This document shows positions 11,710 to 58,177 of a stretch of 64,000 bases of DNA, in pieces (position 1 is the first letter of the stretch; each line of letters opens with the position of its first letter). Below the pieces are notes generated by a model. The model ran no database searches. It was not told the origin of the DNA and saw only the letters and a list, made by a program, of their open reading frames with translations. Location: assembly GCA_950295325.1 (NCBI GenBank), contig OX485808.1, positions 18,062,527-18,126,526 of the forward strand. The letters are read 5' to 3'. A program made the translations under genes and the position numbers. Source of the stretch: Polytrichum commune (taxonomy: Eukaryota; Streptophyta; Polytrichopsida; Polytrichales; Polytrichaceae).

Positions 11710-12780
11710 CATAACATTATTTAGATCCATATCAATGTTATGTCGGACTGAGAGTATTCCATGTAATATTCCCAGATATTTCCCACATTCAGAGATTGAA
11801 TGTGGGAAATATCCAGGAATATTATGTGGAATACTCTCAGTCCAACATAACATTGATACAAATCTAAATAATGTTATGAACACAATACTAAACTTTAAAA
11901 AATAGCTAACCAATGAAATGTTCACTCAACATGGGCCTAAGCTTCTTTGGGATGCATCTCGGATCACAAACACCTAACTCACACAAACCCTTAAATTCCA
12001 TCATGATAAGAACCTTGGAAATAACCGTGGGCAACACACCCTCAAACAAGATATCTCACAACCCTAACCCTAACCTATGCCTACTCAAATAGAACGACGA
12101 CTATCTACACCTCCTCTAATGTTGCACAAATAAACATAAAACAACCTCCACATTGACTGACATAACAAAGCAGTCCACGCAATAGCCAACACACTACAGG
12201 CACACCCTACCATAAGATGCTTCACACTAACAAACGTCGGGAGAACTTAATGAACAAAAATTGGAGAGCACCATATATACCATTATGACTCTTCCCTTGT
12301 TCTTGCTACCTCTCACGCTACAAATGCCCAACACGGCATGTCCTGATATACTATGCATCCTTGGAGCAACACCTACGGCCAAAACCCCATTCACCAAACC
12401 CCAGCCTAAAAGTCCAACTCTTTGAATTCATATGCATATTGTAACGATAGATCCCCTTGGAAGTTGCAACAAGAAAACTTGAGAAATACGCCGTACTCCA
12501 CACTACTCACCCAACAAGGGTGGCAAATCCTCCCACCTATAATCATAACGACCAAAATTCTTGGCACCATTCACACCCCAACCACCAGAAGCCTCAGAAA
12601 CCTAAAAATCCCTATCCAAAAAAATCACAAACTCATGGATACCCTCTCACAAATCTCCATCAAATACTTCACACACATTACCCTCAACAAAAGAAAACTC
12701 GAAAAGAAACAATCCCCAATTCCATTGGACTAATCCCCCCCCCCCCCCCCCCCCACACACACACCCTATCTATACCTACT
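11230..12780. other. Strongly G-poor, C- and A-rich tract, possibly a decayed retroelement
   Basis: The plus strand is markedly poor in G over more than 1 kb, most clearly at 11,900-12,730, which interrupts the composition of its neighbours. Open frames on the plus strand are low-complexity (rich in His, Pro, Asn, Lys) and unlikely to be real. On the minus strand short coding-like patches appear, but stops interrupt them. A run of about 18 C followed by CA repeats lies at 12,735-12,762. Confidence 0.35.
11710..11878. mobile_element. Foldback (long inverted repeat) element, intact copy
   Basis: Two arms of about 80 bases are near-perfect reverse complements around a 6-base centre near 11,795. 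The ends read CATAACATTATTTAGATC and its complement, ending AATAATGTTATG. It can form one long hairpin and has no coding capacity. A sister copy lies at 28,835-28,961, with its first 10 bases displaced to 13,536-13,545 by insertion of the 15.3 kb element. Confidence 0.85.
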
Positions 12781-13160: not shown

Positions 13161-13947
13161 AACACTATAACCCATAATCAAGGTCTCGTTCTTCATAGTT
13201 TCCATTAGAAGTCTTTCATGTGGGTTGACCAGTCATTTGGGGTCTTTGATTGACATTGTATAAATACAATTTTTTTTTTTTGGAAGTGAATGCATTATAC
13301 CAGTTTGCATATATATATATATATAAGTCAAATCTCCATACTTTGCAAGAGAAGGGGCATGGTTCCAAGGTTAGATGTCTTGCTCTTTGAGCTCCAAAAA
13401 TTGGAATCTCCACTTAAATGAATACTTGAGCTTTGTGTATGGGATGAGCATGTGCCTTTGCTTTGAATAAGTAAATAAATAAACCATGAAAATATGGATA
13501 TGAATGAATAAGAATTAGAGTAATATGTTTAACTCCATAAGATTAAACACTATATTCGGTATTTGGAGACTTTTTGTTGATTATGAGACTATATAAGGAT
13601 GCACATTTCAAAATTGGACCAGTAATGACGACTAAAAATCCCATATGTATAATGGTATGCTACTATTATTATACATAAAGGCATGGAAGTGAAAAAAAAT
13701 GTGAGGCATACATGAAAATAGTTGCGTATGAAATGACAACTCGTTATGAATGGAAGGGAAGATGCGAAGAATGAATGGAAGTTGAATGAATTAATTGGGA
13801 TAGAAATACAATTATAATGGAAATACCATCAATGTCTTGAGTAACTTGGAATAGCATAGAAAGTAAGCACTTAAATATGTTCTACACCTAAGCCCATTTA
13901 GGGAGCCCGTCCCACTAGTACGCTTCTAGTCACACTAGTCCGACCCA

Positions 13948-14917
13948 CTATTTTTTTTTTGCGGCTAAGTCCTTTTTTTGGGCGGCCTCCATGGCTCTAA
14001 AAATCTCAGGCCCACGACTGTATCCTTGTGTGTTGCCTGGAAAGGAATATGTGTCGTTCTTGCATGTTTCAGGACGCGCTCCCGAATTGTACGAGGTGGT
14101 ATTATAAGTAGAATACGAGGGCGTTTGCGAAAGGGAACGTCTTGCGCTTCTCCGGAGGGCCAGAGAACGATCGGACTCGGAAGATGCGGCCTTGAGGGCG
14201 TGCCTTGGCACTGACGAAGTCGAGGAGGGTTGGCCACCAAGCGAGCGGGGAGCCACCTGCCAAAAAACGCCATAGGAAGATAATAATAAGAACGGAGTGG
14301 GGAAAATGAGGAAGGGCGGTTTGGGATGGGCGCTTGTAAACCTCTTGGCACGCACAGACAAAGAGGAAAGCAACGGTGAATATGGGTTTAGGGACAAAGA
14401 AGGGCACCTTGGATTTGGTGACATCGATCCCGGGGACGATGGGGGCGTCGAGGAGAGCATACGAATCCGGTTGAATTGCGGCACTGTTCAGTAATGTGGG
14501 GGAAGCATGGCAAGGAGGGCCAACGACCGGGGATGGGTTTGCAGGAGGAGGAACGGGGACGACGGGGGAGGGGTCGCACCGGGTTGCTTCCAGGTGGAGA
14601 CGTCGGCTCGGCCCACGACGAGCGATGGCGTCGTCCCTCGAGGGCGACACATGCCCCAAACGAACGAGCGTCCGCTTCTCCTTGGAGAGGGGGGAGGGCG
14701 ACGGGGCGAACGCCCGAGGGACAACCCTGGGGGGCGGGCTGTTGACAACACCGTCGTCGACGTCCCGGGAGTAGTCCACGGCCGAGGCTGCATCCACCGC
14801 CGAGAAGTGGTAGAGTGAGGGGATCACGGAATACGTCACGCCGCGGGAAGGGGAGCCTGGGGACGAGGGGGGACGGGAAAGGCCGTCGAGGACGGGGGCA
14901 TCACATATGGGGGCAAA
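13948..14917 (-). CDS. Downstream exons of the left gene: Ser/Pro-rich protein with Lys/Ala-rich C terminus
   Basis: Two exons fit: 14,917-14,408 (170 codons) and 14,256-13,948 (102 codons plus TAG), separated by a 151-base GT-AG intron. Both start and end in phase 0. The first is Pro/Ser-rich and contains VTYSVIPSLYHFSAVDAA; the last ends in AMEAAQKKDLAAKKK. No known domain is visible. The first exon opens after a CCATAG acceptor with no start codon, so it needs an upstream exon, most simply exon 4 of the phosphatase-containing gene. The decayed copy near 44,130-45,100 keeps both pieces in the same order, with a similar Lys/Ala-rich end, which supports this reading. An unspliced frame at 14,839-14,102 reads through the intron and encodes an artificial hydrophobic stretch. 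It may be a separate gene. Confidence 0.5.
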
Positions 14918-15030
14918 CTATGGGGAACAACAACAATAACAACAACAACACAAACAACAAAGACATCCAAAAACGGATGAAGCGTTAGATATGTGAACCA
15001 AATGATAACACGCACATACATGAAGATATT

Positions 15031-18000
15031 TCAAATGAGTTTATTAAATTTCACGAGCCTCATGATGCTCTTGTATACATTATCGCGGGGGCTTAGTCCC
15101 GCATTGCCGATGGGGTTGGACCTAACAAAAAAGGGGATGCTACCGGCGTGGAGGACAAGCCTTCTAAGGTACGGCGCTAGCGTATCGACCAAAAATGCGT
15201 CCTTCCTATCTCCGGTCCACGTGTCGGGAAAGATGACGTTGCCCGGGGGGTTCAAAACGCTCTTGGCGGGGCTGTCGTCGACCAGGAGGGTGTTCTCCGG
15301 AGTAGGCCACCACCCGTGGGGGGTCCCCTGAAGCCGGGGGACGCCGCGCCAAAGTCTGGACCTTAGGACCTTGAGGAACTGTTGCCCTCGGCCTCGGCCG
15401 CCGAACTTGGGAACCGGTAGACCCTTTTCGTTGAGTAGTTCATCGCAGTCCTCTTGCCCGAGGACAAGGCAAGGGCTCGGGAGATCACGGAATAGGAAGT
15501 CGACGATGGGTTCCGTGTTCTCCATGACCATTGAGCTCCACACAATGACGTGGGCGAACTCGACAACCTCGCGAAGGAAGTCGCGCAAGCCGGGACGGGC
15601 GCGGACAGCCTTGCGGTTTATTAGGGTGTCGAGCTCGCCGTCATAGTCCCTTTCGTCGGGGTGACGGAAGGGACGCGTGGGGACCCTCGGGATGTGTTCG
15701 GTGTGACACAACACCCCGTTGAGGTCAAACACGATGAACGACTTGTTTCGGGTCTGAGGTCCACTGGTGGAGGGGTTGCGACCTATCTCCGGGGGGTCCT
15801 GTGATTAACAATTCGACTAGTTTAATGCTATGATCCAATAAAGAATTTAGCAAACATGAAGATGCAGTATGGAAAAAGACGAAGGGCGAGAACAAGGGTA
15901 CATTTGCGAACGATTGTTCGTGAAAGGCCAGCAGTGACCATGCGCACCATTCACGAACGTTCATTTGTGAATGAACCCTATAGTGCATTTACGAACGGGC
16001 GTTCGTGAAGGAGATGGTCGCGGGGTGGCATCCTTTTACGAGCGTCCGTTCGTGAACGAGGCAGAAATGCACAACAGATTTAAACCCGCATGAACATACA
16101 CAAAACAACCAATGCGAGACGACGCGATTCGATGCAAAAAAATGTTTCATTTATATGAATTCCGTGAAAATTTACAGTTTGTCTCAGATGATAATCTATC
16201 GTACAGGTTCCTAGGGCAACAAGATGCCGTGTCCTACAAAACTGGTCGACCTGAGGAAGCACGCAAAAATGGGCTATCGGAGGTCTCGGATGCCGATGTA
16301 TACAACGCGCCAAAAACACAACGCATGTGGTTAGAGATGTTACGAACGCGCGTTCGTAAATGCATGCGGTAGTCTCAAAGATGAGTTACCTCGTCATCGG
16401 AGGGAGGGGCAGCGGCGCTGGATTGAGCGGCAGCTCCCTCCTCAGCGATTAACGAACGCGCGTTCGTCACATCCGCCGCCGCAGGTGCCTCAGTCTCCAT
16501 TACGTCGTCAGCACGCGCCGCCTGAGACGTCTGGGTCTGCTGTATGTCGTCCTCCTCGCCACCCAGGTCGAGAGTCTCCATGTGCACGTCCCCAATGCAT
16601 GCGGGGGGATGTCGGTCTTCCGCAGGGCTGTCCTCGACGTCCATCCTCTGGACGCCTGCGGTGTCACTCGGGCTCCCCTGCGTGTCCTCCACAATGACCA
16701 AGTCAGTGTGTCGCGCAGTATCATCACCCCTTGTCCTATCTAGTAAACTGGGGACGATGGTGAAAGGTGCCGTGTCCGTCTGTGAAGGCAGTCCTACCCT
16801 TGGTGGGGGTGGGGTGAGGACTGTTGGACCTGAAGATTCACGAACGTGCGTTCGTAAATCCTCGTCCTCACGGATAGCCGCCGAGATTGCGTCGTGTATG
16901 TTGGCGGTGTCCGTGGGCATTGTAGGGGGTGGAGGAGTCCCCACCGGCGTTGGGTGGGGCGCTGGCTGGTAGGAATGCCCTCCCGGGAAAGGACCGTGCA
17001 TGGGGTATCCCGTAGGGAATGGGAATGCTGCCTGAGGGGCCACTGCAAAGTTCTGCAGCCTGGTCAGCATCGCCAGTATGGCGTCCGTCTTCTCGTTGGA
17101 GGACTTCAGCTCCTCCTCAATTTTTCTCATTTTCCGGGCATTCTCCTCTGCAGCCGCAGCCATGTCTTCCTTCATCTTCTGCTCGAGCTTTGCGTTAAGC
17201 TCGGCGACGGAAAGGGCCTCCTCCTTGACCCTCTTGTTCTTGTCGAACTCCACCCCAAGCTCGACCATAATGTCAATGTCCCCCTCGTCCTCGTCGGAGA
17301 CCTCGATGATCGCCCCCTCGGGCAACTCCACGTACGGGGTCTTCTTCATCCTCCGTCGCGTGTTGCGGAACAGGTCCAACGTGGGACGGGAGCGTTGGTC
17401 GAGGACATCGAGGGTCTCCATTTTCGGGACCGCCAGCCTTTGCTTGGGGGACACTGACGTCGAACAACCTCCTAGCGTGCCGAAGGGCTCCGCGCCTGAG
17501 GTAAGCGCGGGGAGGACATCCTGGGTGGCACCCGCCGAGGATCCAGTACATCCAGCCGGGGTCCCTTGGTATTCTGAAGGCTCCCCCGATGGGGCCAACA
17601 ACCGGAGAGGAGTGACATCCAAAGCCTGGAGGATGGCATCGACGTTGACGGAGGGGCCAGGCTCGTCGTCGTCTGTTTCCATGGGCGGCATGCCTTCATC
17701 GGCCGGCATGTTGAAGTCCGTTCTGGGCACGTACATGTCAGCTAGGTCCATCGTCGACGCTTTTGTCCTGTGGAACTTGTAATCCTCCTCGTCGACGGCG
17801 TCAATATATGTGTTCACGCACAGCCCCAGCATCTGAGATAAGAAGGCAAAGATTCAGTCATTTACGAACGCGCGTTCGTAAACATGAAGGCTTTGAGCGA
17901 GGAAATAATAAAAAAACAATTCACAAAACAATCATAAGTATCGGCTGCCCATGGTAAATTGTTTGGAGCATGCAGTGTTTACGAACGAGCGTTCGTAAAA

Positions 18001-20765
18001 AGTGGTGTGAGATGGCTTACCATGGCCGCGTACATAAATTTGCTGCCTCCAAATACGTTGTAGACAGTCTCGCCAGTCATTGCCAAACCCTGCAATATGG
18101 AGACGTAGAACTCCATCCTCAGCTCCAGCGCCGGGAAGACAGTGTACAGAGTCTCCTGGAAGAGATCCTTTGGAGGTGGGTGAGGGATGCTGTATATCTT
18201 CTTGAATGTGTTGATCGCCTTTATGGGTGCTCGCCCATTCCTAAGCGCATTGTACGTCAAGAAGATGAGGCTCACCGCTCCCACCTGCCTGTTGCCTCTG
18301 GCCTCGTTTACGGCAACAATTCCCTCCGTCTTCGCTGGCACGTATGTGCTGTGGAAGATGTTTTACTCGAACTTGATCTTGTTCTCATACAAATCGATGA
18401 CGACGGATTGCTTCTCCTGCTCCACAATCCACAGCCATACGTGCGGCTCCCTCATGGTCCGAGATTTGTGCTCCATGAATTTCGCCATGAAAGGGTTGTA
18501 AAAAGGCTCCCCCTTCGCGCCCTGTCGCGAGGCACCGGGTATCCCTCTGAAGTCGATGACCGCGAAGGGACAACCCCTTCGATCCTCCCTGACCTCGGAC
18601 CTGCTGAAGGTGCCATCCCACTTGGAAAACGTGGTCCTCTCCAGCCCCGTGGTCACCACACAAAATCTTGCCACGCCCTCGAAAGTGGCGTTCCTCTTCC
18701 TCTCCAAGAAGGAGATGTACCGTTGAATCTCTTCAGGTTCCGTTTCTGTTTTTTTTGCTCTTTTGTTTCCCTTGAGCTTCAGGACGGCGACGTGCTCCTT
18801 CACCAAGCTGCGCATTGAGGCACCGTTGATATTGTACAGCGCCTTGAACTCCTTCCATTTCGCCCAGTTGATATCTTCGTCGGCCTGGAAAATGTGCATC
18901 TCAGGCAATAGGCCGCTAATCTCCCGCATCGCAGCGGTCTTCAGCTTCCTGTGGTCGCACCACTCTTTGATCGAGTACGTGCCGGGCTTGTGCTTTGGTC
19001 TCTTCAAAAATATCTTGGGATAAGGGATGGTCCTTCCGACGGTGTTCCCAAGAACGTGAACCGCACATCGCTGCAACTCTGATTCAGTCAGCCCTTGCAG
19101 GGCCCTAAAAAATTCCCGCAGTAGAGGCGGGGCCTCTCCGCTCTTCTCTTGAGCGTACTTCTCTTCTGTGTCTGGGTTCACCAGATCGCCCGAGCTGTGA
19201 GCGTCGAAGAACTGGGTCCACAACTCCCAGGTGTCTCTGTTGCAGCAAATCAGACGGAGCTCACTTTTGAGCTCCAGAACTGATTTGGTGCTTGTGGACT
19301 TCATGTCGATGGAGGAGAATTTGTCCACCATCGCATCACAGAACGCCTGCAACATACATACGAGGACGTCAGTGTTCAATACTAAATACGAACGCGCGTT
19401 CGTAAGTTGGAAAATTTAGAAATTGTTTAATGCAACATATGCTTTACGAACGCTCGTTCGTAAACTCACCTTCCACTGTGGAGATTGCGTCTTGGCGTTC
19501 TCCCTTTCTTTTGGCGGGCATCTGTGCTCGACCCACACGTCTCTGGCCGCCACTATATTCGCCGCCCAGGAGGCCTCGAATGCCTTGATCTTGTTTCCGG
19601 AATTCAAAAATGTCGATATTTTGCGGAGCTTGTCCCAGTCGTCAGACCAAACCAAAAACGCCTTCCAGTAGCGCGGGTCCGCCTTGAGCTCGTGCTGGAA
19701 GTTATCATCCTTTAGGATGATCTGTGACGCCTCTAGACTGTGTTGTCCATCGATTATCTAGAACTCTCCATTCTGGATTCTTGGCCAATCCTTCTCAGTG
19801 GGGCGTGACAAAAAACCCTTGGGCATCACGCAGACGGTCTGCCTATCCCACTTCACGTTGTTCATGAGGTTATTAATCTGCCACTTCACCCCTCCGCTTT
19901 CACGAGACCTCACCACCCACTTGTTAGGAGATTTCTCGCACTTGAAACAATCCACGTTGAAAGTGAAGTGGCGTCCCATAGGCCAGCAATCCTTGGAGTA
20001 GTTGTTGAAGTCTCGAAGGATTTTTGTCGCTTTGGCAGCGTCTGGGTTTTCTCCCTTCTTCAAAGGGGTTGGCATCACTGGCGGAGAACTAACCTCAACG
20101 CCTTCCGTCAATCCGGACTTCTCCATCTCGTCCCTCGACCTCTTGGATGGAGTGGATTGTCTGTTGGGCCCTTCTGTCAACCTGCTCCCCGAAGGCACAG
20201 GCCGCGGAGCACTTCTCGATCCTCCTGCCCCCGAAGCAGCTGGTTTTTTCGGATTTTATTTTATTTTATTTGCCTCCGCGGCAACACTGTTGTACTTCGA
20301 AACATTCAAGGTCAGGGCAGTCAACTTCCTCGCCGTCCAGTGTTGACTCAGGGCATATTTGGTGAAGAGAGCATCCAGATTGAAATGTTTCGCATCGGAT
20401 GCGACATTATTGCATGCATAAGCATAAGAGAATGGGTGCAATAGGTAGTTTAAGAGGAGGTTCACATGGTCTTTTTTATTTTTCATATCCAGAATAACAA
20501 AGTCTCCTTGTGCCTCTGCGGATTCTATCTCCCAATTCTTTGTCTGCACCCATTGGTCTGGTTGGTCAGCCCTTGTCTGCAGCTCATAAGTGAATCGCAA
20601 TGCAAACAACCCTTCCTCGGTCTTCGTGGGGATGGCCGTCCACTCAGCCATGAATTCTTCTTTTGGGACATAGTTGTCGTTCCCATTGGTATCCGAGACG
20701 CCCTCTGGAAGGCGCTCCACTGGCACTGCGAACAAGTCGATGGCGTTTCTGCTAGCTTTAGCCAT
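15031..20765 (-). pseudogene. ParB-like (DGQH) / coiled-coil / FCP1-like HAD phosphatase protein, with three in-frame stops
   Basis: Four exons join in phase 0: 20,765-19,470, 19,346-18,021, 17,832-16,390 and 15,798-15,031, about 1,610 codons. Introns are 123, 188 and ~590 bases with GT-AG borders, and each holds ACGAACGNNCGTTCGT palindromes. Exon 1 contains IIDGQHSLEA (codons ~337-346), resembling the DGQH/DGHR motif of the ParB/sulfiredoxin fold. Exon 2 is not recognised. Exon 3 is acidic and Pro-rich with a coiled coil (LNAKLEQKMKEDMAAAAEEN onward). Exon 4 is FCP1-like: FDLNGVLCHT (motif I, second Asp replaced by Asn, as in a plant subfamily), VWSSMVMEN, then VDDSPAKS and NPPGNVIFPDTW. Stops interrupt the frame at 20,256-20,258 (TAA), 19,758-19,760 (TAG) and 18,363-18,365 (TAA), yet no frame changes. 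It is either decaying or read through. The final stop at 15,031 could instead be bypassed by splicing to 14,917. Confidence 0.65.
15906..16857. repeat. Palindrome cluster 1: ACGAACGNNCGTTCGT in the last intron and exon 3
   Basis: Copies start at 15,991, 16,038 (one mismatch), 16,342, 16,452 and 16,840; degenerate ones start at 15,906 and 15,953. The first four listed positions up to 16,357 are in the intron of the left gene. Those at 16,452 and 16,840 are inside exon 3, coding TNARS and RTHVR in two different frames. Each is a 16 bp inverted repeat with a free two-base centre. Confidence 0.9.
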
Positions 20766-20815
20766 CTGCATCACACAAGAGCAAATCAGAATTGCTTTTA
20801 CGAACGTTCGTTCGT
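17864..20815. repeat. Palindrome cluster 2: copies in introns and just upstream of the start codon
   Basis: Copies start at 17,864 and 17,981 (intron between exons 2 and 3), 19,388 and 19,446 (intron between exons 1 and 2) and 20,800 (35 bases upstream of the ATG). Most extend to about 20 bp with flanking TTT and AAA. Centres vary (CG, AG, CT, TT) while the arms are constant. Confidence 0.9.
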
Positions 20816-21290
20816 AAACAACACCGTGCCATGCATATTATTTTCATAGTGTGGTTTTTGGAAATACGAAGTTTTGAATGCTTTATGCATTTCAGGGTGT
20901 TTCTAATGCATTCACATTGGTTCACATCTTTCACGAACGCGCGTTCGTAATATGAGATACATGTTTATTAGTATTTTGTACATAACTATACGAACGCGCG
21001 TTCGTAAAATCATGCGATATTGTGGAACCTACTGAGTTAAATTTAGTGTTGTGATTGGATTTAAGTACTTATATGAATTACAGCATGGATATATCCCTCC
21101 ATTTTGGATTTAGAGTTTCGAACGCACGTTCGTAAACGTAGTCCTTGGGTTCCAAAGAATCTTTACGAACGCGCGTTCGTGAAATGGTATATATTTTGCG
21201 CGGCCTATGCATTTACGAACGCGCGTTCGTAAATGGGTGTATATTGTGCGCGGTAGAGGTATTTACGAACGCTCGTTCGTAAATGAGCCT
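20800..21290. promoter_or_regulatory. Palindrome-rich 5' region of the left gene, with a 50 bp tandem repeat
   Basis: Palindromes start at 20,800, 20,933, 20,990, 21,118, 21,165, 21,215 and 21,265. The last three are exactly 50 bases apart and belong to a tandem unit that also contains ATATTnTGCGCGG. Lying immediately upstream of the ATG at 20,765, the region probably contains the promoter and may bind an element-encoded protein, or serve as subterminal transposase sites. Both roles are inferred from position and symmetry. Confidence 0.55.
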
Positions 21291-22299
21291 GTTGTTTGTT
21301 TTTATATATATAATTAATAATAACAATATAGTGTCCGTACATATACTGATTCGTATATATACGAATTCGTATACATACGTATGGCAAGGTCTTGCTTGCT
21401 GTGTCTCAGCAAAGCTTGCACTTGTGCCTGCAAGTGTTCGTCAGAAAGGTGAGATTGAAGAAAAACAATACAATCAAAACATATAGACTTGGAATGTGAC
21501 AGAGAATTCAGAACGAGGATCCGAACTTGACTTCCAAAACACATGCCATTCAATAATGAACAAATATAGACTGTGAAGGATTTGAGAAGGGAAGGAATAT
21601 TGTGCTTACTCTGAAATTTTACACACCCAAAAGTTGCTTGCTCCTTTGTTGAAAACCCCAGGAAACCCCACAAAAGCAAGGTGATTTGAAAGTCAAATGC
21701 ACCACTGCACCACTGAAATTGCCTTCACACTAGTTGTTGCATGCTATGTACGAACCCTAACTAAGACTCTGATGTATATGCAATTTCAAATGCAGTATTT
21801 CTCAAGCTGCTACTCTAAAACTTGCAATTATCAAGCTTATAGCTTGAGTATCCTAATCTTAAGCTTCCAACTCTCAAGCTTTAAACTCTACAAACTTTCA
21901 ACTCTCCAACTTTCAACTCTTCTAACTCGAGTTCTCTATTCTTGAGCTGCAACTCTCAAGGGACTGTCAATAACTCTCAACACTTGCCCCTACAAAAGAA
22001 GTGCACCACACAAAACTAAAAAATGCAAGAGCTTCGCCTCTAAACTCTAAACCAACGCGGCGCTCCTCCTCTCTCTGCTCCAAATGAGAATGAGGAAGGA
22101 GAGGAGGGGGCGCGGGGAGGTAGCCCGCGCCTCTAGGGTTTTCCCTCGGGCTGCCACATGGCCGCTTCCCATTGGGGAGGGAAGGGATGGGTCGGGCTAG
22201 GAAGATGAGGGGATGGGATGGGGAGATAGCATGGGGTGTGGGATGGGTGGATGGGGGGGATGGGGGGGATGGGTTGGAATTCATTGGGGTTTAGTAATT

Positions 22300-23105
22300 C
22301 AATGTAATCAAAGCACATAAATATATTCAATGTGACTTAATAAAGTGATTTGCATGGGGGGCACTAACCGATTTGACATAAATCTATGTCATCACAATAA
22401 GAAATGCAACTATATATTACACCATTTGCACTTAGTTTGAGACTTTCCCAACTCTCTAATTAACGAAAATAATCTAAGTTGGATGTATAAGCAATAAAGG
22501 CACGTTAATTTCAAGCTTTTTAATATGTATATGCCTCCATCACATAAACATAAGGAGTCCAGTACAAAACATGCATTTTAAATGCTACATCCCCTTCATC
22601 TACTTTGGATTCATTGTAGACATCTTCTAGATAAGGAGTATGAATTCAATTTCCACATTGCACATCATGTACTAGGGATTCGATGAAAACCCTACCCCCA
22701 ACGATGTGTATTAATATGGTGTTTTCAAATATATAGTGTTCTCATAATTGAAATATCTTTCAAATTTTTAAATGGTTCCTCAAATAATTTATTATAAGAT
22801 CCATAAAGGTCCCGATTTAAGATTGGTGGGAACGGTTTAGGATTTTCTTACAAGAGGTGCGGGAAAATTCAATTTCAAATACTAGGCTTTCAATTCAGTT
22901 TATTATGTGTGAACTTGAACTACTGCATTAAATTTATTATTATATTTGTTAATCCGAGACTTTGGAAAGTCTCAAAATAAATGCAAATGATTTAATATGT
23001 GGTTCAAATTCTTATTCGGATGAGATGTATTTGTGCCAAATTGGTTAGTGTTGCCCATGCAAATCGCTTTATTGTGTCACATTGAATGTATTCTTGTGTT
23101 TTACT
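22300..23105. repeat. Inverted repeat pair (22,300-22,473 and 22,939-23,105) resembling element ends
   Basis: The arms are about 165 bases each, roughly three-quarters identical by eye, separated by about 465 bases. Their facing ends carry TTAATCCGAGACTTTGGAAA (right arm) and a diverged counterpart (left arm). These match the right terminal repeat of the large element near 28,796-28,825. The end-like sequences point outward, as if two related elements had been joined back to back. Confidence 0.7.
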
Positions 23106-23689
23106 TGTTCTTTATTTGAATACCATGTTCTGAAATAGTATCCAAAATCATGAAAATGTCCCCAATTACAGAATATGGTGATCGTTGAAAGTTTGGCTCG
23201 CATCAAATGTAAGCTACAAATAAATTAAGTTAGTGCAATATGGATTTATGAGTAGTGAATATAGTTTGTATGTAAACCCTGTTATATGAATTACTGGACA
23301 TGCACATCCCTCACAAACCCTAAACCCTAAACCCCTAGTTTTTTTTACCATCCGCACTATATGGGGGAATGTTGTGATCCAACCTAATAGTGTTGAGTGC
23401 ATTTTAATTACACAATGCATAAGTGAGACTCCATATAGGTATGGTTTCAATTCATATCATTACACTATCTTATGCACCATTCCAAATTAATTCAACATTT
23501 CCACACAATGTTGAATCAATTCACTATTTGCAAACCTGGAGTTGCATTTGAATTAAGATATAAAGTATATCTAGGCATGGTTTGAATTCATCTCCTTAAT
23601 CTACCTTAGTAGCTTGCATGAATTCACCAGACTTTTTATTGGTGTTCATGCACTTGGTGAGTATTTTCCGCAATAATGTACATAAATGT

Positions 23690-23930
23690 AATGTAGATAC
23701 ATGTAATGTATATATATGTAAAGTATAGATATATGTAAGAAACATATATATATAGATATATAGATATATAGATATATAGATATATAGATATATAGGTATA
23801 TAGATATATATTCACATATATAGATATATATAGATATATATTTACATATATACAAAGATATATATATGTAAATATAAGTAAATATATACATCGATATATA
23901 TATAGGAATATACATTTTATTTTTTGGTTC
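23690..23930. repeat. ATAGAT/TATATG microsatellite
   Basis: A run of the unit ATATAG lies at about 23,745-23,840 with flanking TATATG-rich sequence. Open frames here translate as Tyr-Ile-Ser repeats and are artefacts of the microsatellite. Confidence 0.85.
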
Positions 23931-24290
23931 GGGAAACCTTGGTAACACCTAAGGTGTGGAACGGATGAACATATTATCAATGCGTGCATGCCATACATAT
24001 TCAATACAGAAAGTTATTTATGTCCCGCATGAATAGAATGGCATATTGTTAGGTTAAAGTAGGCGGCGGGAATCCGCTTTTCAAAGAGAATCCAAGGGAT
24101 TTTGAACCACGGTAGAGGAGTACTTAAAGCTCTCCCCCCCATTGCAGAGCTCTTTTTTGCGGGAGACACCAAGTGTGCGCTCCAGACACCCGACGGAGGG
24201 CGCTCGAGCCAGTTTCCTGTGCGTGAACCGTACACTCATAGGTGGCAGACAACCTTATCCCGCAAATACCGCCGCAAATACCGGGGGTTT

Positions 24291-25135
24291 ACGAACGCGC
24301 GTTCGTAAACCTGCAGTGCGCGCATGTGTTTGTGGATGAGATATATCGAGGTTGGTTGGATGTTTACGAACGTGCGTTCGTAAATACCGCCTTGGCGTAT
24401 ATTTTACATCCATAAATGTATAGACCCAGATACGATTATGCATAGGCACAGACAATATGAAAGTCATATACGAACGAGCGTTCGTAAATGTACATTTTGA
24501 GCATCCGAAGAACATTGGGAATGTGCAAGAGTTTACGAACGCGCGTTCGTAAATATTGAATGCGTGTAAACGGTGTATGGTACATACTGAAATGACATTA
24601 GAGTTTACGAACGTGCGTTCGTAAGTGACACCGCTTATTTTCAGAATCCATATACTCATGGATATAAGGGGTATGAAGATGTACATACAATACGATAGTA
24701 ATTTACAAACAGAAGGTCGAAAATATCAATGATTTCAGCAGATATACATAAGATGAGCGAGAGTTTACGAACGTGCGTTCGTGATTTCCACCTGGGAGTA
24801 TGTCGATGCATACATCACGCCTCCCTGGGCACGCACACAAATATATATGTATTTACAACAAAATATTAGACATAAATACGAACGTGCGTTCGAATTCATT
24901 CAGGGAATGTATCTGGACATTGACTGCGGGATGTGGGAAAATGCTCCATTTGCTCCACATACACATAGTATGGGCGAGGGATGTGTATTTGGGGCACATG
25001 GAATAATACATTCATATGCGTCAATGACTCTCGGAAGTTTTGTGTAGGCATATAACAGATATCCCTGCACAATTGAAACGGTCCATGTTTTAGTTGACAT
25101 ACAGAATGACGGGGAACATTCGAACGCCCGTTCGT
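24291..25135. promoter_or_regulatory. Palindrome-rich 5' region of the DUF7869-like gene
   Basis: Eight copies of the 16 bp palindrome start at 24,291, 24,366, 24,470, 24,535, 24,607, 24,767, 24,878 and 25,120; the last two have one changed end base. They lie within 1 kb upstream of the rightward gene, mirroring the palindromes upstream of the leftward gene. The symmetric placement suggests one protein acts on both gene starts, or that these are internal binding sites for the transposition machinery. Confidence 0.6.
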
Positions 25136-25302
25136 ATATATGCCCAACTCAAACAGAAGCGTGTCTGCATGCAGACGATCGTTCTGTTATTCCCACTGTG
25201 ACTTGTGCTCTATTGTGACTTAGGTTTACTAAAATCTTGTCGTATTTGTGATTGACTTATATATGTTGTGATTCCATGTTCGCGTCATTAGGTGGGTTTG
25301 CG

Positions 25303-28300
25303 ATGGATATGGGAGATAGTGCATTTGAGTTGTCGACGAATGCATCGTTGTCGGATACGGAATGTCGCCTCTCTTCGCCTTCGGAGGATTATATTTGAGG
25401 GGCTAACATCCTGGGTGTGTCTGGGGATACATCCTCCCATGAATCTTTGGAAGGGCAGGAACATTCCCAACATTATGGGGATGATAACGACCACATTCCA
25501 TTGTGTGCCGGTTTCGGGAGGGAGCAGTGGGTGGGCCTTGATGTTGTTCTTCTGAACGAGCATGGTGTCCCTATGGCAAATGGCATTTGTAGAAACTCCG
25601 ATCCCCTTGAATGTATTGATGCCAACCCCCTTGGATTGGATGATGTTGGCGTTTGCATCTTGAATTCTTTACTTCCGTTGGAAGTCCCGTTGACTTGGAG
25701 ATTTTCCTTGCGGCGATGGCCCCTGCGTCGAGTTCTCCATGAAGAAGTAAGCTTGTGGGATCATGGGCGACGGCACAAGCAAACGCAGTCAGCTTTGTTG
25801 GCCGCAAGACGTCCTCGCAAAGGTCTGCGCAAATATGATTCTAGTCGCGTGTCTGGCATACAAAAAGAACGTAGACGGGATTCCATACTTGGAGAGGACT
25901 CTATCCGTCAAGTATCCACAAAGGACTGTTGTGCAAAGAAATGTTGTCAATTCTTTCCGCGTGAAAAAATTAGGTCCCTTCGGCAAAAGATGTGGCTTGC
26001 GGATTTTCGTATGAGGTCGGCAAAAAAACTCGAGGTCCACAGAAATTTGCACGTTGACAGCCATGGCAATAAGGTGGTTACCCTTGAGAAAGTGGAAGTG
26101 TGTTGCACAGCATGGTATTCCATCCATGCAGTCTCCAAGGCTAATTTTTATAGGTTTAGGAAGTATTCTTTGTTGGGACGCCGTTCTCGATTTCATGGCA
26201 ACTCGGGCACCAAGAAACCTAGAGAGGCTACACTCCAAGCCTCCGCGACACTCTCCACCATCATAGTCCCGTTGGCCGATGCAATGCCCCACAAGACGAG
26301 GACATTGTCCTCCGGGGAGAAAGTTGTCCAAATGGTGTTGCCCACGGGCACAAAATGGAAGAACATCTTAACGGACATAAACGAAGTGGGTCGCAAAGCT
26401 GGGTGTGGGCCCATTTCTTTGTCCAAGTTGAGTGTAATTAAAAACCAACAGTTTGCGGAGTACATTTTGAAGAGACCCGGGGACAAGTTTGCCAGGTGTA
26501 CGACGTGTGAAAAGTACAAAGGTCTTCGAGACGCCCATCCTATAGGCACCGAGTCCCATACAAGACACCAAAGAAAATGCATTGAGCATGTCAACAACCA
26601 GGAGGCACACCGTCAAGATTACTACAAGAATCGTGCACTATCCATAATGAGGCCTGCGGAGGTCCTAACTGTCATCCATGATAAAATGGACCATGCCAAA
26701 ACCGCATGCCCTTGTTATGCACGCAAAATTAAAGCCACGGATGGTCTCTTCAAGTTGCCCGTAGCTGTCACAGGTTCGTATGGAATCACAAATGTGTTTG
26801 AAAGGATTTCCAATGTTTTTGGGTTTGTTTGCCATATGTCAAACTTTATCCGTCTGTTTAGTGGTTATACCATATTTTTGTTGTTCATCCATCGTTTTTT
26901 TTTCTCAGGTATGATCGCCCACGGCCATGGGGACGTTAAATATGCCCATTATGGTTTGGATTTTTACCCTGGTGATGCCAACCACACGGTTGGTTCATTT
27001 GCAAAATTCTTGCGCGATCTTGAGAAGCCGCCGATTCACTCTTCCCGTGCGCTTTTTGAAGGTTGTGGAACGACACCCCTTTACGAGGCAGTGCTTCAGG
27101 GGAAGGAGGTTTGTATGTCGGCATTGCCGGAACCACGTGGAGAACCCATTTGTGCAAAACCATTGCCTCCAACTCTCCATGTTCAACTTGATAATTGTGC
27201 TAAAGACAACAAATGTCGATATGTGTTTTGTTTTTGGTCATTGCTTGTGGCAAAAGGCATATTCAAAGAGGTGTTTGTGTCTTTCTTGATGGTGGGGCAC
27301 ACACACGATGACATTGATGCGTCATTTGGACGTTGGAGCATGAAGTTGCATGAAGAGGATTTTCCCACCATACCGCTTCTTATGAAATCATACATGGATT
27401 TGGACAATGTGCCCGTAATCCCGCACATGATTGAGGAAGTACCAAATTTCAAGGCCTTCATCAAGCCATACATGCTGAAGGGAGATGACCGTTTGGTGGG
27501 ACACACGAAAGCACAACAATTCCGCTTCTATATGAGGGATGATGGTGTCCCTGCTATGCAGTTTAAGCTTTTGTGCACATCTCCTAATTGGTGTCCGGAG
27601 GATGGGATACTCGTGTGGCGTCAGAACAAGGATGGAAAATGTTTGCTCCCGGATGGGGATCCAAAGCCTTGTAAACCCGATCCCATGAAGAATGGGCCGG
27701 AAATCATCAAAGGCATATCCGGATTCATTGAATATTGGAAAGAGTTGTGTGAGGAAGACATCACCAAACGTGTTAAGAATACTTATGAACCGTTGATCGC
27801 GTATTGGGATCGCATTCGCTCGGCCTTGATGACACTTGGTGGCGACACACGTATAACTTTGACACAAGGATTTTGGCCACAAAGTCGTTTGACGGTTGTG
27901 GAGTCCGACACCATGTTCTTTGACAATGGAGAGGTCCGTGAAGAGTTCGAAATGGACGAGCATTACGTTGGTCCTGCGCGCAATCGGCCAGCACCGTCGT
28001 TTCGTGTGGGTGTTGATTGCCATGAAGGGTATATGGTCCTCGTACGAGCAGGAGATGAGGAGCATCCCAAGCCAATTTGGTTGGTGAAAGCATTGTCTTC
28101 ACCCAATTTTATCCGAACTAGCCCCAACTTTCATCAAATTGAAGTGGAATATTGCCGTCCTAGCACCAAAGACCAGAACGTTCTCCGGACCTATTTAGGT
28201 TGGGACACCAAAAAGAATTTCAAGTGGACAGTGGATTCAGCATATGGACCGGTTTGGATAAACACGGATACCATACTTTGTGCTTGGAAACCGCGTAAGG

Positions 28301-28434
28301 GCTCTAAATCGGAAACAATGACCATCCCCCAAAAACATATAGATTTTGCCAAAGACAACCTGGCACGTATTGCAGCTGTGGAAAATGAAGCCGAGAATGG
28401 ATATGAAGCGGAATATGGAGACGGGGAAACATAA
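25303..28434 (+). CDS. DUF7869-like protein, candidate transposase of the 15.3 kb element
   Basis: The frame opens with ATG at 25,303, is interrupted by TGA at 25,396-25,398, then runs open to TAA at 28,434. Without the TGA the first later ATG is 25,573. A 135-base GT-AG intron (26,774-26,908) fits in frame: its translation is hydrophobic junk and removal joins LPVAVT to GMIAHGHGDV. The spliced product is close to 1000 residues. MVGHTHDDID (27,288-27,318) is the signature I associate with the DUF7869 family. With QLDN (27,184) and DKMDH (26,680) it gives a plausible D-D-D triad of an RNase H-fold transposase. A CTTCEKYKG segment upstream may bind metal. The protein's lone place at the right of a TIR-bounded element fits a transposase. 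Family function is not established, so this is inference. The TGA is one C-to-T step from CGA. Confidence 0.7.
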
Positions 28435-28830
28435 CATAAGTTGGATTTAATGGCTCAACGTAGGGGGACTTTATAGACTTGGTATTATTGCAATTATTAT
28501 ATAATAAATTTATAATATTCAAATTTATAAATACGTTTGGGATGTGTCATACAATCCCATAAGACCCTTATATATGGGATGCACACCTTAAACTTTATAA
28601 TGACATAATACTATTTGATTTTGGGATTGGATTGTTTTTTCCACGTGTAGTTCATGTTTATGTTATGATATGAAGACTTACTATTTTTAGTAATGTGAAT
28701 ATTCTTCGCGGGCGAATTTGTAAACCGTCATGTTCCCAAAGTTCCATATGTTCACAATATTGGCATCCCAAACTATGGGCGTATTTTATTTTGAGACTTT
28801 CCAAAGTCTCCGATTAACGAATATAGTGTT
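28435..28830. other. 3' flank and right terminal region of the 15.3 kb element
   Basis: The stretch is AT-rich and non-coding, with likely polyadenylation context near 28,500 (ATAATAAATTTATAA). It ends in the right terminal repeat, which includes a self-complementary GAGACTTTCCAAAGTCTC at 28,793-28,810 that is not conserved at the left end. Confidence 0.6.
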
Positions 28831-28961
28831 ATTATTCAGATCCATAACAATGTATCTGTGGGACTGACCATATTCCACAAAATATTTCCCACATTCAGAC
28901 ATAATGTGGGAATATCCAAGAATATTCCATGGACACTATTATGGATCTAAATAATGTTATG
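28831..28961. mobile_element. Foldback element interrupted by the 15.3 kb element (right part)
   Basis: From 28,835 this follows the foldback at 11,710-11,878: CAGATCCATA, TTTCCCACATTCAGA, its complement and GATCTAAATAATGTTATG. The missing first ten bases, CATAAGATTA, are found at 13,536-13,545 on the other side of the large element. The two parts overlap by ATTA, the target duplication. Confidence 0.8.
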
Positions 28962-43741: not shown

Positions 43742-46600
43742 AACACTATATTTGGTAATTTGAGATATTTTTCATGATTTGGAGACCAACAAAGGACTTG
43801 ATGTCAGATTACATGATACAAAATACAAGAAAGACGAACCAATTACGTGAAAATCGATCACTTACAATCTTAAAACCAAATTAAAATACATCAAATGTTC
43901 GAGATTGCACCTGCGGCATAGCATCCGAATCCAGTTCACAAACACTGAAGACAATAAGGATGCATCCAAATGTACACAATGCAAAACGAATAACATAATA
44001 TGGAGAATGAAATTTAGATATATTTTATACTCAATTCAAGGGGTGGTCTTTAACGAATGATTTGAATGCCAAATTCGCATTTGAATCCACATTATCTATC
44101 TTAGTATTAGGGAGCTTAGTAATTCACTTATTAGTTGCAAAAGCCTTTGCAACCGCCTCTTTTTCTTTTGCTCGTTGTGCCTTGACAACCCTAATAATCA
44201 CTTCTTTACAACTATAACTTTTGGTGCAGACTAGGCCCATTGATCTGAGGGCATTCAAATATTTCCATGGGGAGAGCACACTATGGGAGGATCCGCAACT
44301 TAGTGTAACGTATATTGAGCATTGTGTAAGACTCTGACGAAGCGCAAGAAAATGCTCAGACTTTGATGGGCCATCTTTTGTTGGAGCAAAGACTTGTAAG
44401 GTTCATTCAACACCACACAATACGACATTTAGGATGCGAGTCTGTAACATAGATTTGCTAGTCACTATGAGTAAAGAGCATATCCAACCTACATTTGCTA
44501 GTTTGGGATGCGAGTCCGTGACCTTGGATCGAGGCCAACAAGTTTTGAGAAAATGAAAGCACAATGGAAGTTAGCGAATGTTTAACTTTTGAAGGCAATT
44601 TCAATAACTAATATGCTAGAAAACAAAATGAAGAGGAAGTGAAAGTGCACCTTGGTTGTGGGTTTATCGGGGTGAAAACATCTATAAGCCAAAACACTGA
44701 AGAGGAATGTCTCCCACTTCGTGAAGGACGAAACATCGGTCAAACTATGATCGGCCAACTGTGGAAGGAACTGATGTAGGAGGGTGTACAATGATGGGAA
44801 ACGGGAGGGGGGGGGGGGGCATCGATGCATGCAAGCTCCCCATTTGGGGGCAAATTTGCAGGACAAGAAATGGGATTGATGGGGATGTTGCACGGTGGAG
44901 CCTCCATGCGGAGATGCTTGTTGGGCTTTTGACAAGCGTTGTTGTCAACCCAAAGACAACTAGGTGTCTTAACGGCGTTCGAGCGCCCATATTTTTTTGC
45001 ACAGGGAAGAGGGCAACGGAGCATATGTGAGGTTGACAACTTTTGCAGGTGAATTGTTCATGACACCATCATAGACCTTGGCATCTTTGGTAGAGTGATT
45101 GGTAGAGTGAGGACAATTGGAAGTTGCTCACACCATGAGATAGGGTACCACGGAAAGACATAGACGTAGAAAAGTTGTGAATGATAAGGAACACATTTTG
45201 AGGGGACAACTATGAGAGCACAAATTCATGCCCAAAAAAGGAATAAACATTAGAACAACAATGTCAAGCACACGTTGTACAAAATCACAAACTTGGAGGA
45301 TTTCTAAAATTAAATTATTGAATTCAAGCCGGCGGATGGTTTCATATACATCACTATTGGGGTACTGATCTATTGCCAATAGGATTTGAGAGGACACAAT
45401 CTAGAATCCTATTAGGGCGGTGTACAAGCCTTCTAAGATAGGGAGCTAGCTCATTTACTAGAAAAATGTGTTTTCTATTGTTGGTCCAAGTGTCAAGGAA
45501 GATGACAATGCCAGGGGGTTTAAAAATGCTCTTTGTGAGGTCATGTAAAGAATCGATTTGATTGTTTAATCAAATAATTCTTATGTAATCATTATTTGGA
45601 TTATTAAGATAATGATATATTTTATTGCAACGTTTTGGTGATAGAAATTAGCTTGGAGAAAGAGAGCCTAAGTAATGGACTCTAATGATTTATTAACGGG
45701 TTATTTAGGGGCCTAAGCTACATTAGATAAAAGACTCAATTGGCTTAAACAAATATGGATAAAAGAATATTCTTTGTATATCCAATGGCCATTCCAAGAG
45801 GACCCGAATGGAGGTATCTATAATGATTGGATGAAACAAGTGGCAAATTGATAGATATAATTAGATTCTTAGTTTGATTTTATATAAATTATCCTAACCA
45901 TAAGATATATTATTGATAAGTATCTTTTGATACTAATAAATCAATGGATATATGAAAATTAATCAAATGAAAGTCTGAGGGATCTAAGACTTTCACAATG
46001 AAATCCAAAGTGAACGAACAGTAAACAATTCTCCACTCAGCCAACCAAGGCCCAAATCAATGAATAGGCTCATCCCCACCCCCTTAAGGCAACCCTTTAA
46101 AAGGGGGTTTAACGTCGACTCTAAAACAATTTTAACATCATTTCTCTTTAATATATATTTTTTTACTTCATCCAACTTTAGCCTTCGGAAGTTTTGGACC
46201 TCTGAAGGCTAGCTCTTTTATTTTATTTCTCTCTACTTTGGTTGACTGCGGAAAATCTTGTCACACCATCATATTTTGGCATTTTTTTCTTCTTTTGAAG
46301 AACAAAATGTACATAATTTCCTCTATCATCCAGGGATGTCTTTTTTTCATTATTTTTAATTCTTTCAGCCATAATTATGGTGAATTTTCTCTTACTAGGG
46401 CTTATGAAGGCACCATTGATATTGTATTCAAGTTTGAAGGCCCTTCCATTGTTCCAAATTATGTCCTGTCAATATTGGCTAGTATTTTTGCAAGACAAAC
46501 CTATAGATCGTCATGACAACCATGGTCTTCCACCACTTTTTAATATGGCAAGAAAATAACTTCATGTGCATAAATCGCTTAATCTACAAGTAGAACAATA
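43742..46600. mobile_element. Decayed second copy of the 15.3 kb element, left part
   Basis: The left end AACACTATATTTGGTAATTT matches the AACACTATATTCGG terminus at 13,546, in the same orientation. Minus-strand remnants follow in the same order as in the large element: a Lys/Ala-rich C terminus near 44,130-44,230, Pro-rich exon remnants at 44,640-45,110, the phosphatase end at about 45,310-45,545 (PPGIVIFLDTW, LAPYLRRLV) and exon-2 remnants at about 46,380-46,560 (GCACCATTGATATTGTA). Many stops and indels are present. No right end was found and no ACGAACG palindromes occur. Confidence 0.7.
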
Positions 46601-47388: not shown

Positions 47389-47888
47389 CCCAGGGAGTGC
47401 ACTGTTCAAGTACTGTAAATGTACACGTGCATGCACAAAAGGGGTATTATTTAGAACAAGCATGTACAAAATGTACGTTCAAGAGACATATTGCTATTAA
47501 GCAGGAAGTAGATATACATGAGGCTGGAGATAAGGCTATAGAAAAATATATGTAAAGTACGCGTTTACGCGTTCAAGTCAGACCTGGACCAAGAATCATG
47601 CGTTTTTTCATCCACTAAGTAGCGACTTTATGACTAAAAATCCATGATTTGATATTATACATATAATAGGGCCATATTTTTGCATTTCCAAACATTTGTA
47701 CACATGTTATATACAATTTCTGTATTTGTTTTTGGACCCTTGTGTACGTATGGAAATGTATTTTGAAGCAATGAGATTTGTAAGTATATTGCTTGATTTT
47801 AGCAAAAATAAAATGTATGCAGGGGTATTTTAATAAGGGGCATGCACGCACGTGATGCTTGGTTTTAATGAATAGTGCACTCCCTGAG
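47389..47888. mobile_element. hAT-like MITE, 500 bp, 8 bp target duplication
   Basis: GTGACAAG flanks both ends (47,381-47,388 and 47,889-47,896). The left end CCCAGGGAGTGCACT and the right end, on the minus strand CTCAGGGAGTGCACT, are inverted repeats. An 8-base duplication is typical of hAT elements. It has no coding capacity. Confidence 0.8.
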
Positions 47889-55606: not shown

Positions 55607-58177
55607 ATGGAAGCTTGGAGGGCTAGATTAGCAAATGCGTGGGCAACTTTTCTTGAGGATGATGAGGATGATGAGGACGATGAGGTTAGCATTGCTATGG
55701 CTTTGGGTCAGTTAGAGAGCGTAATTCATGCGGAATTATAACCACCAATGGTGTTATTGGAGGGTCAAGTGTAGGGAAGGCCAAGAACATTGAAAGGGCT
55801 AGAGTGATTATGGATGAGTGAATGCACCTAGATTATTTTTGTGATGAGCCGGTGTGGGGTCCTGCATTTTCTCGGCGGCGATTCCGCATGAGGAGATCAT
55901 TGTTTCTCACCATTTTGGAAAGGGTTTGTGTCCGTGACCCTTATTTTGTTCAGAAGAGAGATGCTTGCGGTTTAGTAGGGTTGTCTTCTCACCAGAAGAT
56001 GACGGCAACCCTCCGGATGCTCTCTATGGGTGTTTGTGCTGATGCCATGGATGACTACTGTCGGACAAGTGAATTAACCGCTATGGAGTGCATGAAGCGT
56101 TTTTGTTCAGCTATCCGCCATGAGTTTGGAGAGCACCATCATCGACAACCCACGAGAGCTAACTTTGAGCAACAATTGGTAGTCAATGCGGCTCGCGGTT
56201 TTCCTGGTATGCTTGGGTCATTGGATTGCATGCATTATGAGTGGAAAAATTGTCCGGTGGCATGGCAGGGAGATTTTGGGGATAGGAAGGGAAAGCGGTC
56301 AATTATTTTAGAGGCTGTTGCTGATCAAAATTTGTACATCTGACATATATTTTTTGGGTTGCCGGGGTCAAATAATGACCTCAATGTGTTTGATCGCTCT
56401 TTATTGATCCACAACATGCTCACTAGCGAGGCTAGTGACTTCACCTTCGAGGTGAATGGGAAAGAATACAACCGGTACTACTTGTTGGCGGATGGAATAT
56501 ATCTACAATAGAGTTGTTTTGTTCAAAGCATCCACGAGCCCGGTGATGAGAAACGCAAACACTTTGCAAAAAGACAAGAGGTATGCCACAAAGATGTTGA
56601 GCGTTGTCGTGATGTGGGCCGGCTACTAGTTAGAACTTAGGCATTTTTATATGTTATTGTTATTTTCAAACAGATATTAATATGATGATCTAAGTTAGTT
56701 GTTTAAGTTGACAACTGGTCTTAAATTTAAGATCGGGTGACTTGATAAAAGAATGTAGTAGGTAGGATTTGGGAAGGATAGGATTTACGGGCGGTGGCCG
56801 TTACCTAACTACCTAAAGGATCTAGAAGGCCTAACCTTAAAGTTTCCTATTGGTTAGCCGGATAAGGGTTCTAGAAGCCTTAAACCCAAACGTTCTTATT
56901 GGCTTGCCGGATAAGCCTTTAACCTTAACATTTCTTATTTCTAGCGGGATAAGGGTTCTAGAAGCCTTTAACCCAAAAGTCTCCTATTAGCTAGCCGCTT
57001 AAGGGTTCTAGAGGTCCTTATCCCAAAGGTATCCTATTGGCCGAAGGGGGCAAGGGAGAAGAGTATTTAAGGGGTGTTCAAAGGGGGAAATTAGCATTTG
57101 GAGTTCGTGTTTGTATAGACTTGGAGGAGTTTATAGCATTTTGAAATACATAAGTGTTTACGAAGCTCTATGATACTTGAGGGTGTTGGAGTGAGAATTT
57201 TAAAAGTGAATATGTTACACTAAGTGCACTATTTGTATTGTTTCATTGGTTACTAAATGAGCAAAACTTTGGAGTGAAGAATTTTGTGAATTATGGATGA
57301 TTGACGTGTTCGATTGATATGAAAATTTGAGAAAATGTTTCTTGTGAAATATAAGTGTTGAGGTAAAAATTTGGAAACTTCAATATTTTGTATGAAAAAG
57401 TTGTTAGGAATTGAAGAGAAAGGTGTCTAGAAGTAAAGCCGACTAAGAGAACAAGGTTTAAAAATATGAATATTTTAGAATTTTGTAGCTATGGCTACAA
57501 AAATTTGATATTTCCTTTTGATCTTATCTATCTATTGTGTATAAAAATTTGAGGTTGATTGGACTTAAATGTTAGAAGTTATGAGGGTTTTAGACTTCTA
57601 GTAACCAGATGAGAAAACACAACATTCATGCAAAAATGTAGAGTTAGTAAATCATGCATAATTTTTTGGTTTAAACGCCGTTTGTGCTAAATATTGGTGT
57701 GTGAATTTTTAGTAAAGTACTCAATAAGTGTAGCAAGTGTCACTTGAAGGAGGTGAGTTAGTTGAGAGTTATACTATTCTGATGTATGGTAGGATAACAT
57801 TGAGAGGAATTTTCAACAAGGGTGTAGGAAAAAGAGAAAGTACCACAAAAAATTTAAATACTACCATAAAAGAAGCCCCGTGCTTACCGTATAGTATACA
57901 ATCTTGACAGCGTTGCTTTGGAGTGTTACAAGCTTTTTTTAGCATCATTCGGAATCCATGTCGCCTGTGGAGTATGGACACGGTTTCTGACATCATGTTT
58001 GCATGTTGCATTTTTCACCACATGATTTTGGAGGATGAACGCGATGTACCGGGGTTGGAAAATATTATTTCAAGGCTAATTGATGAAAATGTGCTATTGT
58101 GTAGGGGCTTGTCATTTGAAGCTCTTATGAATGATACAATAGAGATAGAAAATGAGGACTTGCATTATAGTTTGTGA
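55607..58177 (+). pseudogene. PIF/Harbinger DDE transposase (HARBI1/ALP1-like), broken
   Basis: The reading starts at ATG 55,607 (MEAWRARLANAW, acidic tract), shifts frame near 55,740, then gives the classic plant order: FRMRRSLFLTILE, VGLSSHQKMTATLRML, ARGFPGMLGSLDCMHYEWKN (catalytic Asp of DCMH), IILEAVADQNLYI, FFGLPGSNNDLNVFDRS (second Asp) and FAKRQEVCHKDVERC. After the LTR insertion it resumes with FGVLQAFFSIIRNPCRLW (the segment that follows the third catalytic residue) and MILEDE, ending at 58,177. Stops in frame are TGA at 55,819, TGA at 56,341 (expected Trp) and TAG at 56,509 (expected Trp). The enzyme would have cut and joined transposon DNA in the nucleus; this copy is dead. Identification is firm. 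Confidence 0.9.
56605..57909. mobile_element. Probable solo LTR (1,305 bp) inserted in the Harbinger transposase gene
   Basis: The insert starts TGTCGTGATG and ends TTGACA, giving TGTC...GACA termini. GCGT flanks both sides (56,601-56,604 and 57,910-57,913). Removing it and one GCGT rejoins the VERC and FGVLQ coding segments exactly in frame. Inside are three to four imperfect copies of GGATAAGGGTTCTAGAAGCC (56,863-57,020) and a TATTTAA box near 57,064. No internal retrotransposon genes remain, as expected for a solo LTR. Confidence 0.75.

Follow-up and report, generated by a model that had tools for sequence, protein, structure and literature searches.

A complete 15.3-kb DNA transposon with a DUF7869 gene, a predicted ParB-like fusion gene and conserved palindromes in the moss Polytrichum commune

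The window analyzed here is a stretch of 64,000 nucleotides from the moss Polytrichum commune (assembly GCA_950295325.1, contig OX485808.1, positions 18,062,527 to 18,126,526), and within it lies a 15.3-kb element that carries two divergent genes and a family of palindromes (Table 1). One gene encodes a DUF7869 protein and the other, read leftward, a long protein with a predicted ParB-like fold. The element is bounded by inverted termini that start from AACACTATATTCG and are alike at 25 of 28 positions; as a control, 300,000 pairs of 28-mers were drawn at random from the window, and a single pair matched at as many as 22 positions. ATTA flanks both ends. When CATAAGATTA and TTCAGATCC are rejoined across the element, they give the same length and nearly all the letters of an uninterrupted foldback element at 11,710, although on the left side this comparison rests on only the six bases beyond the duplication (CATAAC), at least five letters of which precede 4 of the 364 ATTA sites in the window. 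The termini, the duplication, the empty site, the two genes and the palindromes had all been noted in an earlier description made from the sequence (the original prediction), and each was found again here. The observed/expected ratio of CpG is 0.96 in the element vs 0.51 elsewhere in the window, which fits a young element.

The borders could be verified by searching the window's own genome (407.8 Mb in 64 contigs) with the left end, a check that the original prediction had proposed. The search gave 40 scored matches among 559 candidates, 98-100% identical. When 30 of these loci were fetched, 27 began at AACACTATATTCGG and two at the one-letter variant AACACTATATTTGG, with one (L027) left unparsed, and the left flanks of the 27 parsed copies differ from one another. 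Right sides were then fetched for 20 further copies picked from the 27, first for one copy and then for 19. Nine had no right end inside the fetched stretch and one (L006) was cut off; in the other ten the right end and its flank are readable, and all ten have an exact 4-bp duplication. This is TTTA in the singly fetched copy and TCCA, AAGA, TTAT, CAAA, ATGT, AGTT, AATG, AGGA and AATC in the nine of the larger set. Counting the window copy, all 11 copies with both ends readable thus combine inverted termini and a duplication of fixed length, as a class II element should in independent insertions, and their lengths range from 15,285 to 16,343 bp. Both genes also lie between these ends in a second complete copy, found elsewhere, which has a duplication of its own. 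Because independent insertions agree in both ends and are flanked by 4-bp duplications, the stretch from 13,546 to 28,830 moves as one unit; it is a complete DNA transposon with a 4-bp duplication, a conclusion we regard as virtually certain, and the borders given in the original prediction are correct. The family is large and young, with many near-identical copies.

Table 1. Positions of the transposon, its parts and related features in the window
Feature	Position	Strand	Details
Whole transposon	13546..28830	+	15,285 bp; inverted termini, genome copies, duplications
Target duplication ATTA, left copy	13542..13545		read in sequence
Target duplication ATTA, right copy	28831..28834		read in sequence
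Left terminal inverted repeat	13546..13573	+	end-to-end comparison
Right terminal inverted repeat	28803..28830	-	end-to-end comparison
Left-end stretch shared by copies with differing interior	13546..14145	+	about 400-600 nt, ~97-99% alike
PH-like/ParB-fold/NIF gene	15034..20765	-	predicted exons 20765-19470, 19346-18021, 17832-16390, 15798-15034, all phase 0
Exon 4, NIF-type (HAD) phosphatase domain	15034..15798	-	PF03031, E 9.3e-16
Nine palindromes in introns 1-3 of ParB-like gene (2, 2, 5) and two in exon 3	15906..19461
Seven palindromes upstream of ParB-like gene	20797..21286
Eight palindromes upstream of DUF7869 gene	24287..25138
DUF7869 gene, probable DDE transposase	25303..28434	+	predicted intron 26774-26908
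Uninterrupted foldback element, model of empty site	11710..11878
Right part of foldback hit by the insertion	28831..28961
Old decayed relative	43742..46450	+	left end 43742-43796, NIF-region block 44855-45540, ParB-gene block 46252-46450

The DUF7869 gene of the window copy is interrupted by one in-frame TGA (25396-25398). In an hmmscan at E <= 1 DUF7869 was the sole match of its product, and there was no Pfam match to the enzymes of Ginger1, piggyBac or AcademX. The predicted fold has an RNase H-like core similar to those of Mos1 and retroviral integrases, although a Foldseek search alone with this model gave no significant match. Together with the Asp residues conserved as alignment columns in DUF7869 proteins, the predicted core would supply the three acidic residues of a DDE/D enzyme. 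Given this predicted fold, the conserved Asp residues and the presence of the gene in the second complete copy, the protein is very probably the DDE transposase of the element, so that this proposal of the original prediction is well supported. The mosses Ceratodon purpureus and Physcomitrium patens have DUF7869 proteins, known as database entries only, that are 44-46% identical to that of the element and of full length in the best cases. DUF7869 was not named in any of the 5.39 million open-licence papers searched.

The assignment to a superfamily is less straightforward. The original prediction linked 4-bp duplications with such genes to no named superfamily, and as to the duplications this was mistaken: they are described for Sola2 (PMC3627910) and for piggyBac and Ginger1, with 3 or 4 bp in AcademX (PMC10045372). 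The element could therefore belong to a known 4-bp superfamily such as Sola and have acquired a passenger gene, in which case only the passenger and the palindromes would be new. Sola2 elements have inverted repeats of 12-21 bp and sometimes include a passenger gene (PMC3627910), and passenger genes are common in eukaryotic transposons (PMC12730594). The likeness to Sola is one of duplication length, short termini and passenger. However, the duplications quoted for Sola2 are AT-rich and its passenger is Fanzor1 (PMC3627910), whereas the duplications of our element are in part not AT-rich (TCCA, AATC, AGGA). We consider membership in a known superfamily a serious possibility, if slightly the less probable one. 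Other candidates were tried. CACTA stands at positions 3-7 of the termini with AA before it at both ends, and the duplications are of 4 bp and not 3 bp; CACTA/EnSpm was rejected because the empty site and the duplications fit only the AAC border. The target of piggyBac is fixed as TTAA, a sequence found in 0 of the 11 duplications, which excludes this superfamily. The rve integrase domain of Ginger1 was absent from the hmmscan result given above, while the predicted fold is integrase-like. Academ elements (AcademX) have a second nuclease enzyme of XPG type; the 4-bp duplication fits their 3-4 bp, and no nuclease was seen among the open reading frames (ORFs) scanned, which were a part of all ORFs. 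No description of an element of this kind was found in the open-licence papers searched.

The leftward ORFs form, by predicted splicing, one four-exon gene whose product would combine a PH-like domain, a ParB-like fold and a NIF-type phosphatase domain. The original prediction had seen a divergent gene here, and its predicted nature as a single ParB-fold fusion goes beyond what was recognized then. The window copy has three in-frame stops (codons 20256-20258, 19758-19760 and 18363-18365). A genome search with exon 1 (query P0092) gave 91 scored matches among 1,098 candidates, 86-95% identical, of which 62 have no stop, and 30 of these copies have a median identity of 99.5% (minimum 88.0%, maximum 99.98%). 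The model shows the fold of the ParB N-domain. In place of the phosphate motif GERRxR (GARRYR in KorB), an alignment made by eye has GQHSxE, which is near-invariant in alignment A3, and the missing motif speaks against a canonical CTP clamp. A helix-turn-helix that binds a palindrome would be a further feature of the ParB family; palindromes are present in the element, and the part of the model after residue 405 is of low confidence. The phosphatase activity of the predicted NIF domain is in doubt, as the second Asp of the NIF/HAD motif DxDx(T/V) reads Asn. Searches of PHROGs and NCBIfam with the ParB-like protein gave nothing at E <= 0.05. When profiles of the two proteins were compared with PDB sequences, the matches were all implausible (ephrin receptor, E 0.0037; ATP synthase, E 0.023). 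Foldseek matched no viral model at E <= 0.001, and scans of viral contigs with both proteins and the palindrome gave no match. Left of the NIF exon, G+C-rich open frames without a Pfam match (13951-14917, minus strand) may be a further exon or gene.

The element holds 27 palindromes at up to 3 mismatches, 20 of them with the exact core ACGAACGNNCGTTCGT, and none lies in the window outside it. Apart from the groups in Table 1, the one remaining palindrome is downstream. In the second complete copy, 10 exact cores lie upstream of the transposase gene, and across a 4.4-kb stretch compared in 30 copies, 11 exact cores are kept in 17 copies, 10 in nine, 9 in three and 7 in one. When the window was compared with each of these copies, the median identity was 91-93% for the palindromes, 74% for other noncoding DNA and 78-79% for exons, computed on all 30 copies under three definitions of the sites. 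The palindromes are more conserved than other noncoding DNA in 30 of 30 copies, although the copies are close kin and the result thus counts as one comparison of two subfamilies. This conservation, which the original prediction of a palindrome family did not include, suggests that the palindromes are in all likelihood functional. A single palindrome core occurs in the 43,558 bases of left flanks of the fetched loci (L001-L030), perhaps in a nested or neighboring copy.

Relatives of the ParB-like protein provide a second view of these sites. Where a frame runs past the exon-1 donor, translation reveals the intron, and the DNA forms given here are deduced from such peptides. A palindrome-coded peptide was found in 26 of 31 relatives with at least 8 residues beyond the donor. 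P0092 and P0108 have the window type, as does P0089 in its intron 2, while most others have TTTGGGTCG-NN-CGACCCAAA, read in three different frames (VWVDRPK, FGSIDPN and LGRSTQT), and one clade of four has a third form. Distant relatives thus have a different palindrome in the homologous intron of the gene. On a tree of 37 rows the window type forms one clade (100/100), and the palindrome types require 12 changes vs 16.6 when shuffled, with 0 of 200 shuffles as low. No such peptides were found among 88 DUF7869 proteins.

The explanation we somewhat favor over all others is a cut-and-paste family of 15.3-16.3 kb with ~28-bp inverted termini, a DUF7869 transposase and palindromes that serve as protein sites. 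The presumed enzyme would cut at the AACAC...GTGTT ends and join them to the target with a 4-bp stagger, giving 4-bp duplications of no fixed sequence. The divergent second gene would make the long protein with PH-like, ParB-like and NIF-type phosphatase domains, and the palindromes (TTT...CG-NN-CG...AAA) would be putative sites of a DNA-binding protein encoded by the element, most simply the ParB-like one; on that last point we are evenly divided. This protein may gather on the DNA of the element, where it would control expression or keep silencing away, in the manner of KorB, a repressor, or VirB, an antisilencer. We infer this because site and protein change together, the sites lie at the element's own promoters and gene, and the predicted folds are near those of ParB relatives that act at palindromes. 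KorB of plasmid RK2 silences promoters from operators up to >1 kb away and VirB counteracts silencing, both acting over a distance, from palindromic sites near promoters (PMC11790492, PMC10770331). They share the ParB fold predicted for our protein, but are bacterial and have the CTP motif, whereas the element's protein has GQHSxE, would be fused to a phosphatase domain and belongs to a eukaryotic transposon. Loading and sliding need not use CTP, since ParT of plasmid SCP2 does both independently of CTP; it loads in ParB-like manner at an inverted repeat of 18 bp that lies within the gene encoding it, but is without any CTPase domain, whereas our protein has a ParB-N-like domain (PMC12260392). 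The fullest version, a ParB/parS-like system in which the ParB-phosphatase fusion loads on lineage-specific palindromes, spreads and controls the element, shields it from silencing or tethers it, with protein and site changing together, we offer tentatively and hold to be rather doubtful.

Several rival explanations can be set beside this one. The palindromes lie upstream of both genes in promoter-like positions and near splice sites in the ParB-like gene, which would suit binding by the transposase, or by a transcription or splicing factor of the host, with the ParB-like protein doing other work. Yet ~1.1 kb from the left end and 3.7 kb from the right end are free of palindromes, where transposase sites are usual, and the transposase body and its intron have none; a host factor would not readily explain why the palindrome varies between lineages of the ParB-like gene. 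We consider such sites unlikely. Their many copies and near-perfect symmetry, and the two in a low-complexity part of exon 3, would also suit a functionless repeat of foldback type that multiplied within the element or was homogenized by conversion. This is quite improbable, given that they keep the same gene-relative positions in the 30 copies and the window copy, are conserved far above their surroundings, and are replaced by another palindrome at the homologous place in relatives. That the unit is two adjoining elements not moved by DUF7869, as a 3-kb AT-rich stretch between the gene halves and an old copy at 43,742 with the left half only might suggest, is largely refuted by the second complete copy and by the palindromes that link both halves, and we give it hardly any weight.

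A 15-kb element that recently multiplied to many near-identical copies matters by itself for genome evolution in early land plants. If the ParB-like protein does bind the palindromes, a eukaryotic transposon would contain a ParB/parS-like device. This would reveal a way for a selfish element to control or shield itself, and a new lineage-specific DNA-binding pair would become available. DUF7869, a Pfam family of unknown function, would gain a function.

Comparison of copies among L002-L030 with window positions 13546-15145 showed that the left ends are shared more widely than the interiors. Of 26 copies, 10 stay at 97% or more over the left 1.6 kb, while 16 drop to 82-86% after ~600 nt with the first 400 nt 97-99% alike, except for L019, in which identity is already down to 0.77 after 400 nt. 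Since the left end is almost identical even in copies with differing interiors, recombination or conversion, possibly an exchange of ends between subfamilies, may have taken place. In the decayed relative at 43,742, the surviving blocks of the leftward gene are ordered and oriented as in the complete element (58% over 742 nt, E 2e-27). All of the first ten bases of its terminus are identical, against one of the ten that precede it; a right end and a transposase were not found there.

Inside the element, an inverted repeat at 22310-23102 has 164-nt arms that are 80% complementary, and its inner ends resemble the right terminus of the transposon (95% and 85% over ~40 nt), so that it may be a pair of related ends that face each other with 465 nt between them. 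A long AT-rich microsatellite occupies 23700-23930. Rfam and tRNA scans of the window gave 0 matches. In the rest of the window, a weak RmlD-like match at 2033-2491 (E 0.0064, below the Pfam cut-off) is possibly a fragment of a host gene, and a 500-bp element at 47389-47888 resembling a miniature inverted-repeat transposable element has inverted ends that are alike and is flanked on either side by GTGACAAG (8 bp). A fragment of a plant transposon protein lies at 55822-56340 (PF04827, E 4e-22), of the kind present in PIF/Harbinger elements.

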